A stretch of DNA of 64,000 nucleotides, taken from assembly GCA_030691265.1 (NCBI GenBank), contig JAUYET010000077.1, forward strand, positions 1 through 64,000, in the 5' to 3' direction. Shown here piece after piece: positions 788 through 38,301 of the stretch. The position numbers and the translations under genes are program-made. Position 1 is the first letter of the stretch; every line of letters starts with the position of its first letter. The stretch is from Pseudomonadota bacterium (GTDB taxonomy: Bacteria > Pseudomonadota > Gammaproteobacteria > Burkholderiales > Thiobacillaceae). Below the pieces are notes generated by a model. The model was not told the DNA's origin, did no database searches, and saw only the letters and a list, made by a program, of their open reading frames with translations.

Positions 788-1735
788 ATGACCGAAGCAC
801 CAGTTCTTGGTACGCCGGATTCGTACGCGCTGAAGCGCTACGACTCCGCTGCCCTTTACGAGACCTCCATCACCTCATTGCCATTGATCCACAAGGGCAA
901 AGTGCGCGACATCTATGCCATCGACGACAAACGCATGCTGATCGTCACCACCGACCGCCTGTCCGCATTCGACGTCATCCTGCCGACGCCGATACCGGAC
1001 AAGGGCAAGGTGCTCACAACGGTGGCGAATTTCTGGTTCGCCAAACTCGCCGGCATCCTGCCGAATCAACTGACGGGCGATGCGCCGGAGTCGGTGGTGA
1101 GTCCGATGGAGCGGGCTCAGGTAGCGGGACGGGCAGTGGTGGTGAAACGACTCAAAGCGCTGCCGATCGAAGCGATCGTGCGCGGCTATCTGGTCGGCTC
1201 CGGCTGGGCCGATTACCAGAAAACCGGCAAGGTCTGCGGTATCGCGTTGCCGGCCGGGATGCAGCAGGCGGAACGATTGCCCGAACCGCTGTTTACGCCT
1301 TCGACCAAAGCCGCCGTCGGCGAACACGACGAAAATATCGACTTCGCCCATTGCGAGACCTTGCTGGGCAAGGATATTGCGGCGCGTGTGCGCAGTGCCG
1401 CGATTGCGCTTTATCTGGCCGCCGCCGATTACGCGCTGACGCGCGGCATCATCATCGCCGATACGAAATTCGAATTCGGCCTGGATTTCAACCAAAACCC
1501 GAACGGCACACTGACCTTGATCGACGAGGTGCTGACGCCTGACTCGTCGCGTTTCTGGCCGCTGGATCAGTATCGGGTTGGCGAGAATCCGCCCAGTTAC
1601 GACAAACAATATGTGCGTGACTGGTTGACCGCATCCGGCTGGAATAAACAGGCGCCTGGGCCGGCGCTGCCGGATGATGTCGTCAAACGCACGGCGGAGA
1701 AATATCGCGAAGCGCTGCGCTTGCTGACGCGCTGA
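788..1735 (+). CDS. purC: SAICAR synthase (phosphoribosylaminoimidazole-succinocarboxamide synthase)
   Basis: The enzyme condenses CAIR with aspartate in purine biosynthesis. It is 315 residues long. The recognisable family start is [20 protein letters not shown] at about residue 22, with [12 protein letters not shown] and [15 protein letters not shown] after it. Most homologues I know start 6-8 residues before SLPL and are about 295 long, so the first 21 or so residues are an extension. Bases 809-853 (residues 8-22) are identical to part of a repetitive element found at 38065-38109, which suggests the extension came from that element. The start chosen is the ATG at 788; an internal start is possible but no closer ATG precedes SLPL. 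purD and purH are also in the window but not adjacent. Confidence 0.95.
809..853 (+). repeat. In-frame palindromic element copy inside purC
   Basis: These 45 bases are identical, in reverse complement, to 38065-38109 within the 297-bp element at 38005-38301. The core is an imperfect palindrome centred on GCGCTGAAGCGC. It encodes the purC residues [15 protein letters not shown] without breaking the frame. See the purC and element entries. Confidence 0.85.
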
Positions 1736-17364: not shown

Positions 17365-19005
17365 TCAATGCCGGAAATGCCGAACACCCGTAAATACCAT
17401 CGCGATGCCATGTTCATCCGCCGCCGCGATGACTTCCTCGTCGCGCATCGAGCCGCCCGGCTGGATCACGGCGGTGATGCCGGCGGCGGCGGCGTTGTCG
17501 AGGCCGTCGCGGAACGGGAAGAAGGCATCGGAGGCCATCACCGAGCCGGGTACCGCCAGGCCGGCCTGTTCGGCCTTGATGGCGGCGATGCGGGCGGAGT
17601 TGACGCGGCTCATCTGGCCGGCGCCGACGCCGATGGTCATACCGTCCTTGCAGTAGACGATGGCATTGGATTTGACGAACTTGGCGATGCGCCAGGCGAA
17701 CAGCAAGTCTTCCATTTCCTTGGCCGTCGGCGCGCGCTGGGTGACCACCTTCAGTTCGCCGTGCAACTGGGTGTCGGCGTCTTGTACCAGCAGGCCGCCG
17801 GCGACGCGCTTCATGTCCATTTGCGCTACAGAACCGGCCATGCCCGCCGCCGGGCCGCCCCAAGGCGGGCATTGCGCCCCCTCGGGGGGCGGCGAAGCGT
17901 GGGGGCTGTTCCAACGCCCGCATTCCAGCAGGCGCACGTTCTTCTTGGCGGCGACCGCTTCGCTGGCTTCCGGGCTGACTTCCGGGGCGATGATGACTTC
18001 GACGAACTGACGTTCGACGATAGCCCGCGCAGTCTCGCCGTCGAGGCGGCCGTTGAAAGCGATGATGCCGCCGAAGGCGGATTCCGGGTCGGTCTGGTAG
18101 GCGCGGTTGTAGGCGTCGAGCAGATTTTCGCCATAGGCGACGCCGCAGGGGTTGGCGTGCTTGACGATGACGCAGACCGCTTTTGTGTCAACCCCGGCGT
18201 CAAACGTCTTCACGCATTCCAGCGCCGCATCGGTATCGGCGATGTTGTTGTAGGACAGTTCCTTGCCCTGAATCTGCTTGCTGCTGGCGATGGTGCCGGC
18301 GGGGGCGTTGGCTTCGACGTAGAAAGCGCCGTTCTGGTGCGGGTTCTCGCCATAGCGACAGGTTTGCGCGCGGGTGAATTGCAGCGTGAGCTGGTCGCCG
18401 AACTGTTCACGCTCGCCTGCCGCATTCAGCGCTGTCAGATAGTTGCTGATGTGGCCGTCGTACTGGGCGGTGTGGGTGAAGGCCTTCTTGGCCAGATTGA
18501 AGCGGGTGGCATCAAGCAGCGCGCCGCCGTTGGCCTGCATTTCCGCGACCAGACTGGCGTAATCCGCCGGGTCGGTGACGATGGCGACGTGCTTATAGTT
18601 CTTGGCCGAGGAGCGCACCATCGCCGGGCCGCCGATGTCGATGTTCTCGATGGCGTCGTCCAGCGTGTGCGGCTTGGTCACTGTCTGCACGAACGGGTAG
18701 AGATTCACACAGACCAGATCGATGTAGCCGAGGCCGTGTTCGTTCATGGTCTCCACATGCGCGGCGTTGTCGCGCACGGCAAGGATGCCGGCATGCACCT
18801 TGGGATGCAGCGTCTTGACGCGACCATCGAGCATTTCCGGGAAGCCGGTGAATTCGGACACGTCTTTCACCGGCAGCCCGGCATCGCGAATGGCCTTGGC
18901 GGTACCGCCGGTGGAGAGGATTTCCACGCCTTGCCCGGTAAGTGCGCGGGCGAAGTCGATGAGGCCGGTTTTGTCGGAGACGGAGAGGAGAGCGCGTTTG
19001 ATCAT
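17365..19005 (-). CDS. purH: Bifunctional AICAR transformylase / IMP cyclohydrolase
   Basis: 546 residues carrying out the last two steps to IMP. The N-terminal cyclohydrolase (MGS-like) domain starts [18 protein letters not shown]. The transformylase domain has the catalytic KHANPCGVA and ends with [14 protein letters not shown]. Residues about 365-390 are a Pro/Gly-rich insertion ([18 protein letters not shown]) encoded by a GC-rich palindromic repeat, placed just before [13 protein letters not shown]. Removing it gives about 520, the usual length. The start is the ATG at 19005, matching family N-termini. It lies downstream of fis. Confidence 0.96.
17838..17913 (-). repeat. GC-rich palindromic repeat in frame inside purH
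   Basis: Two inverted repeats lie back to back: ATGCCCGCC/GGCGGGCAT (17840-17848 and 17864-17872) and CGCCCCC/GGGGGCG (17875-17881 and 17885-17891). The boundaries are estimated from where the protein stops matching PurH family sequence. Confidence 0.7.
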
Positions 19006-19034
19006 GGTGGCAAGTGGGTTCGTAGGTTGGCTAG

Positions 19035-19271
19035 CTATTTGATTCCATGCTGCTGCATCTTCTTGCGCAGCGTGTTGCGGTTGATGCTGAGCCAATCGGC
19101 GGCGCGGCTCTGGTTGCTGCCGGCGCGGTCGAGGATGACTTCCAGCAGCGGTTTTTCGACGCAGTTGAGCACCATCTCATAGATGCCGGCAGGCATTTCG
19201 CCGTCCAGATCCTTGAAATACTGGTTCAGCTCGCGGCGCACGCAGGCGGCGAGTTCACTTTCGTCGATCAT
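19035..19271 (-). CDS. fis: DNA-binding protein Fis
   Basis: A 78-residue nucleoid protein with a C-terminal helix-turn-helix ([20 protein letters not shown]) and the KDLDGE segment typical of betaproteobacterial Fis. The frame is open to 19304, directly abutting the dusB stop. The ATG at 19271 gives the usual length and has AGAAAG upstream; ATG 19280 and GTG 19302-19304 are alternatives. The dusB-fis pair is conserved in proteobacteria and is followed here by purH. Confidence 0.92.
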
Positions 19272-22670: not shown

Positions 22671-22849
22671 AGCACCGCTTCGGCCATTGTTCGTCCATTG
22701 GACCCGCCTGGATCAGTGACGTAGGTTGGGCAAAGCGAAGCGTGCCCAACGAACCGGTGCGATGTTGGGCACGCTTCGCTTTGCCCAACCTACGGCGCTC
22801 TGAAGCACCGCTTCGTCCATTGTTCGTCCAATGGACCCGTCTGGTTCAG
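22665..22849. repeat. Direct-repeat pair flanking a 31-bp perfect inverted repeat
   Basis: Two 52-base direct repeats (22665-22716 and 22798-22849; 4 mismatches) enclose a perfect 31-base inverted repeat (22720-22750 and 22764-22794) of the GTAGGTTGGGCAAAGCG type. The first direct repeat includes the GGDEF/EAL gene stop and the second includes the transporter ATPase stop. It separates convergent genes and could terminate both. Confidence 0.85.
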
Positions 22850-38004: not shown

Positions 38005-38301
38005 TTAAACCTAGAAACCTCAGTTGAACGCGCCCGAGTGTGCGGTTTTCGGGTCGGCAGGCAAGGCAGCGGAGTCGTAGCGCTTCAGCGCGTACGAATC
38101 CGGCGTACCCCTTGCGGGTGCGTGACGACGCGCGGGGTCGTTTCCCGCAAGGAGGAGCAACGCAGCCAGACGGCCCGAAAACCGTGCAATCGGGCGCGTA
38201 GCGGCGTCACCCGATTGGTGAGCGCTATCGGAGGCGCTAACGGCCGCATCCATGCTGCCTCACAAGGGCTAAGGAGCGGTCAACTGAGGTTTTTAGGTTA
38301 A
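38005..38301. mobile_element. 297-bp non-autonomous element with terminal inverted repeats and nested palindromes
   Basis: The ends (38005-38027 and 38280-38301, both containing AAACCTCAGTTGA or its complement) are inverted repeats with one indel and one substitution. Inside are a second inverted repeat (about 38029-38054 with 38173-38198, 4 mismatches in 26) and an imperfect palindrome at 38066-38100. A CCTTGCGGG/CCCGCAAGG pair flanks 38110-38150. There is no transposase frame. The internal 45 bases 38065-38109 are identical to purC 809-853. The layout suggests a MITE or a structured-RNA element. Confidence 0.75.

Follow-up and report, generated by a model that had tools for sequence, protein, structure and literature searches.

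Insertion of a palindromic element in purC

The window (the whole 64,000-nucleotide stretch analyzed) carries near its left end the purC ORF for SAICAR synthase (788–1735, forward strand), with an upstream AGGA and a start codon that are common to the relative G007. Just after this conserved start, a 54-bp palindromic element with two hairpins occupies positions 798–851 (forward strand; ends ±1–2 bases), leaving the reading frame intact and adding 18 residues to the protein. The original prediction, made from the DNA letters, had singled out positions 809–853 (forward strand) as a sequence shared with a 297-bp element farther along the window, and the identity proved exact: all 45/45 positions (100%) agree with 38065–38109 on the opposite strand. 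This 45-bp match, which stands as described, covers most of the element plus two right-flank bases; it does not give the size of the mobile unit, for which comparison with the empty site yields 54 bp. The purC copy was matched by the covariance model (see below) at 794–856 with 71.5 bits. Both copies fold into a small and a large hairpin as single-stranded DNA, in keeping with the proposed hairpin-capable palindrome.

The proposed in-frame insertion near the purC start is well supported by the empty site in relatives, for example ATGACCGACGCCCTCTAC, where the window has ATGACCGAAG, the 54 bp and then CCCTTTAC. The upstream context ATTCAGGAT...ATGACCGA is common to the purC gene of the window and the corresponding locus of G007 (L011). 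PurC had been searched for in 61 genomes including the own one, 59 of which gave a match (one of them very weak). It had been reasoned that the same N-terminal residues in PurC of many unrelated betaproteobacteria would mean capture of purC sequence by the element; the 18 extra residues were found in none of the 29 relatives' purC loci fetched from this search. Eighty further loci came from named records, in part of the same genomes; the N-terminus could be located in 76 of them, and the insert was seen in none of these. One locus (L115) gave a loose pattern match, yet it has no insert between the start and SLPL.

Outside the insert, PurC is identical to the G007 protein at 251 of 293 positions, with dN 0.08 and dS 1.35 against L011. 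Such a pattern is as expected of a working gene and points to a strongly conserved protein, and the divergence from G007 may largely predate the insert. Because G007 has the same start codon and preceding AGGA, the insert is most simply taken to be translated. Alignments with PurC structure homologues in the PDB begin only at about residue 28–30, and in the AlphaFold model pLDDT was below 50 at residues 1–20 and at least 90 at 258 of 315 residues. Judged by this model, the insert looks like a floppy, disordered N-terminal addition. Searching positions 500–2000 of the window against Rfam gave no match, and a plasmid search likewise gave none. Directly 3′ of the purC stop, at 1738–1822, lies a MITE-terminus-like sequence, AACCTGGAAACCTCAGTTGAG, followed by a pair of GTAGGTGCGAAT-type REPs.

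The second copy and its host repeats

The 297-bp element at 38005–38301 had been taken for a single, "parent-like" element. It does hold the identical copy of the palindrome, but it is composite: a MITE of ~243 bp with AACCTAGAAACCTCAGTTGA-like terminal inverted repeats, into which 54 bp are inserted at about 38067–38120 (reverse strand; placed by alignment with empty MITEs, ends ±1–2 bases). The covariance-model match of this nested copy extends over 38062–38124 with 77.7 bits. Sister copies of the MITE on contigs C79, C112, C78, and C34 have no palindrome and run uninterrupted through the insertion site, so the 38005–38301 element is not the parent; the MITE copy on C87 carries the same nested palindrome.

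REPs of three kinds also serve as hosts. The palindrome is nested in GTTGGGCACGCTTCGCTTTG^CCCAACCTAC in the own genome and in G006, in GTAGGAGCGGGCTTG^CCCGCGAT in G011 and in one copy in G006, and in a third REP kind of the GTAGGGCGGAAAAGCGAAGCG^CCTTCCGCC type. Two empty REP copies of the first kind, with the sequence GTTGGGCACGCTTCGCTTTGCCCAACCTAC, are present in the window itself (22721–22750, reverse strand, and 22764–22793, forward strand), filled versions being found elsewhere in the genome and in G006.

Copy number, spread, and structure of the family

In the 2.02-Mb genome, a 58%-complete MAG, BLAST with the region as query gave 48 locations, and a covariance model built from 45 copies raised this to 78 matches, far more than expected by chance. 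The counting of copies that had been suggested, with attention to their coding frames, thus gave a multi-copy family in which 14 of the 78 matches lie inside 11 conserved proteins with the frames kept. The mobile unit is a two-hairpin repeat of 54–57 bp. Matches were obtained in 19 of the 23 genomes of the genus, several of them >95% complete, with at least 140 in G011; G001, G003, G005, and G012 gave no match at E 0.001 in this covariance-model search. With stricter filters, which sacrifice weak matches, 3 genomes in a sample of 369 from the class matched, among them the own one. Outside the genus, DNA matches occurred in two genomes of the same family, G025 (one) and G027 (six). The palindrome family is found mainly in one genus.

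As to folding of single copies, the z score was −2.42 for the purC copy (6 of 200 shuffles at least as good) and −2.52 for the MITE-nested copy (3 of 200). In the 45-copy alignment, 96.7% of 790 cells were paired in the two-hairpin structure, and the hairpins are kept with compensatory changes, both sides having changed in 10 of 18 pairs. Four of five structure measures were reached by 0 of 500 shuffles and the fifth by 1 of 500, in a test whose structure derives from the consensus of the same 45 copies and whose shuffles ignore shared ancestry. A larger element bounded by palindrome halves was sought in 315 loci (1.04 Mb) and rejected: two left halves were obtained, both of them damaged full copies, and no right halves.

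Copies inside proteins

Most copies lie outside proteins. The proteins hit are PurC, ComF, CobD (two copies), PlsC (three, in tandem), MurD, MurG, MurB, Mpl, CobS, RhuM, and a DUF3683/FAD oxidase, as identified by Pfam/NCBIfam; for PlsC the model covers the downstream domain only, and on the upstream side the evidence is the open frame. In PlsC, an acyltransferase-type protein (L131, G000:C43), the three tandem copies add ~57 residues immediately before ANHASYLD. Five proteins (MurD, MurG, CobD, Mpl, and MurB) have PDB alignments that are interrupted around the insert, the structure-chain positions flanking it being adjacent in the first four and 16 residues apart in MurB; a second repeat adjoining the palindrome enlarges the break in CobD, Mpl, and MurB. 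The MurD, MurG, and MurB proteins of G007 have exactly 19 residues fewer at the insert site, and the first CobD copy is absent in G011. Presence or absence at a given site thus differs among species. The same proteins are hit repeatedly, as G007 MurD and G016 CobD each carry a copy at a different site.

All 14 in-protein copies have a frame-keeping length; among the 60 other full-length copies the number is 25 (Fisher p = 3e-5; 1.2e-4 if the three PlsC copies are entered as one), a comparison in which the copies share ancestry, so that the events are not fully independent. Removal of eleven borderline cases left 12/12 against 17/50 (p = 2.4e-5). The in-protein model matches are 66 long in eleven cases and 63 in three, corresponding to inserts of 57 or 54 bp. 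That all of these lengths are divisible by three is what selection against frameshifts predicts. The 14 do not include possible N-terminal or tail cases in an ABC ATPase, GAF-HD, ftsW, rmlD, rnhB, phd/PIN, and the FAD oxidase (a further copy where its frame begins), nor the E2 gene on C52; all of these were counted in the comparison group of the first test. In the E2 gene (L152, G000:C52:11600-14703), the lipoyl and catalytic domains of the 2-oxoacid dehydrogenase E2 lie in different frames around the copy, so that the gene may be broken or misassembled, or there may be two genes.

The inserts are read in all six frames, giving such different peptides as HAGSVRRQSRQRLR in CobS, ARRFRKAAEPPTAP in CobD, TAESLAALPPYESG in MurD, and SGAVGGSAALRNRR in a Mur protein; those of PurC and ComF differ too. 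Since all six frames are used, no particular peptide is favored.

Other repeats were seen in frame in proteins as well. MurG of G009 (L327, G009:C256) carries an unrelated in-frame repeat, VSGERGA, in the same interdomain region as the palindrome, which suggests that this region is a permissive site; a MurG structure model (mean pLDDT 67, 7 sequences) was of low confidence and was given no evidential weight. In the window, a purH-like ORF (17365–19095, reverse strand) contains at about 17877 a different in-frame repeat, from CCCCCCGAGGGGGCGC...CCTTGGGGCGGCCCGG. This purH-type repeat is also present in frame in CobD, MurB, and Mpl of the own genome and in tandem in G017 CobD, and the palindrome adjoins it at TTCGCTG^CCCCCC in CobD and at CTCGCTG^CC in MurB.

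Junctions, arrays, and possible mode of movement

Seven sites with an empty counterpart were compared (purC, the MITE, murD, murG, murB, cobD copy 1, and the REP of the window); cobD copy 2, which is also filled in G006, and the ftsW tail, with its weak G007 match, were omitted from the list. At each, excision of 54–57 bp restores the empty site, point differences aside. Insertion in genes, REPs, and the MITE is therefore clean: no target duplication was found at these sites beyond 1–2 ambiguous bases. Within that ambiguity of 1–2 bases, every one of the seven joints is compatible with a position between a purine and YC.

Flanks were examined for 138 distinct copies, 40 of them in tandem and 98 non-tandem. 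Among the latter, 75 have GC as their left flank and 90 have GC or GT at the right end; the commonest left/right pair in 58 distinct contexts was GC with GC (28). The junction bases on the two sides tend to agree (C-C in 70 and T-T in 9 of the 98), and there may accordingly be a 1-base target duplication at the joints. One core copy, on L147 at 1588–1660 (G000:C4), has a 12-bp direct repeat, GTAATTCATGGG, on each side; it is the only such case noticed and runs contrary to the clean joints.

In arrays, all 19 of 19 adjacent pairs lie in one orientation, and nine of them have non-identical cores, several very different. Strongly differing neighbors fit insertion beside a resident copy better than they fit simple duplication. 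The right end of the element reads CTG, then usually a pyrimidine, and resembles its own target; such a target-like end would account for head-to-tail arrays in one orientation.

IS200/IS605-type elements have hairpins near their ends, clean junctions without obvious target duplication, and a short target motif. By analogy with them, the hairpins, the clean joints, and the one-way arrays of the palindrome fit insertion as a folded single strand. The element would then move as folded single-stranded DNA through an enzyme acting in trans, perhaps an HUH/Y1 transposase, and would be joined at R^YC, with a purine on one side and YC on the other, duplicating no target bases. Y1-family genes are present in 17 of the 23 genomes of the genus. 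Scanning of 34 Y1-transposase loci, out of 58 Y1 matches in the genus, gave no dedicated mobilizing enzyme: a copy of the palindrome lies nearby in three (L162, L275, and L271), and at L162 and L275 this copy is within a REP. No transposase-bearing relative with the ends of the palindrome was present among the fetched loci. It is conceivable, if doubtful, that the family has its own, undescribed movement, with a folded single strand joined at R^YC and its own right end targetable, and that it repeatedly places linkers of 18–19 residues in essential enzymes across one genus. If true, this would be a natural in-frame linker-mutagenesis system.

Interpretation of the purC insert

With a probability of about 90%, the repeat is a selfish, non-coding mobile palindrome of 54–57 bp, found mainly in one genus, and the purC insert is one frame-keeping copy of it. 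The inserted residues would then be a tolerated disordered addition and no adaptation.

The alternative that keeps most weight, though an unlikely one, is that the palindrome belongs to the REPs moved by a RAYT, either as a REP family of the ordinary kind whose ends have drifted or as a passenger in RAYT-spread REPs. Its palindromic form, copy number, and arrays are REP-like; copies are found inside REPs, many near-identical ones of G006 and G011 in a common REP context, and Y1 genes are widespread in the genus (17/23). In none of the 45 copies, however, did a GTAG/CGTC tag lie within 8 bases of an end on either strand, 31 of the 34 Y1 loci scanned had no copy, and the purC, murD, murG, and MITE junctions have no surrounding REP. 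A RAYT as the direct mover is consequently not supported by the neighbors of the copies, though it may act as a carrier of REP-embedded copies.

Exaptation, as the original prediction had it, is improbable. Either the added peptide or the hairpin of the purC mRNA would have been recruited for regulation or protein interaction, and it is true that the insert lies early in the message, in a position from which a hairpin could influence translation, and that the rest of PurC is conserved. The tail is nevertheless predicted to be disordered, the same DNA is read elsewhere in six frames to give unrelated peptides, none of the 29 relatives' purC loci has the insert, and Rfam matched nothing in 500–2000, so that no function is indicated. 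That the 38005–38301 element captured a part of purC, or was the parent donating the palindrome, would suit the 45/45 identity, but it is hardly credible given four MITEs that keep both flanks at the site without a palindrome, 76 further matches in the genome, and relatives' purC genes free of the palindrome. An assembly or binning artefact, for which an incomplete MAG (58%) might give cause, is no more credible, as 18 other genomes of the genus, several >95% complete, contain the same family, and in relatives MurD and CobD are hit at different positions. The mobile palindrome thus remains the preferred reading, and annotators should be warned that odd extra segments in such proteins can be insertions.

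Comparison with known systems

MITEs are, like the palindrome, small, non-coding, multi-copy, and mobile; the palindrome differs from them in lacking terminal inverted repeats (ends inspected) and a consistent target duplication. Non-autonomous elements of the IS200/IS605 type share with it the hairpins near the ends, the clean joints, and the short target motif, a link that is hypothetical, and differ in that the fetched loci held no transposase-bearing relative with the ends seen here. A literature search, whose coverage left out most subscription journals, found no description of this palindrome family.

Thauera is a betaproteobacterium. According to the accessible part of one report, REPs tagged GTAG or CGTC occur inside coding regions of many bacteria, Thauera included; clusters of tagged REPs encode long inserts, and some families are nested in other palindromes (PMC3733652). 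In-frame palindromes outside Rickettsia are thus already described for REPs, as far as that part of the report goes (PMC3733652). The present family resembles these intragenic REPs in lying within coding regions and in being nested in other palindromes (PMC3733652), and, on the same partial account, differs from them in being tagless, in having two hairpins, in the head-to-tail orientation of all arrays seen, and in that no linked RAYT of its own was seen at the 34 Y1 loci scanned.

The likeness to Rickettsia palindromic elements (RPE), to which the original prediction had drawn attention, is apt, as both are short palindromes lying in frame inside unrelated proteins. In the accessible descriptions, RPE are short palindromic repeats, in frame in unrelated proteins and likely tolerated (PMC10969869, PMC3733652); they measure about 150 bp and encode a conserved peptide (PMC10969869), and those of R. 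conorii end with CGTC (PMC3733652). Compared by these descriptions, the two have in common a hairpin-forming palindrome and in-frame insertion in protein genes (here 14 copies in 11 proteins), and differ in that the present unit has 54–57 bp instead of about 150, is read in six frames with no single conserved peptide, has no CGTC end, belongs to another bacterial class, and is also nested in REPs and a MITE. As the palindrome works like RPE and the intragenic REPs but is tagless, it was placed in neither group.

What is new is the breadth, with 11 proteins hit in one partial genome, the fact that the same enzymes are hit again between species, and the tagless two-hairpin unit. This bears on the old Rickettsia puzzle of how in-frame palindromes move and whether the added peptides act. 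Because this untagged family occurs in several species of environmental bacteria, offers empty sites, and has struck MurD and CobD more than once, tolerance, target choice, and movement become testable by comparison.
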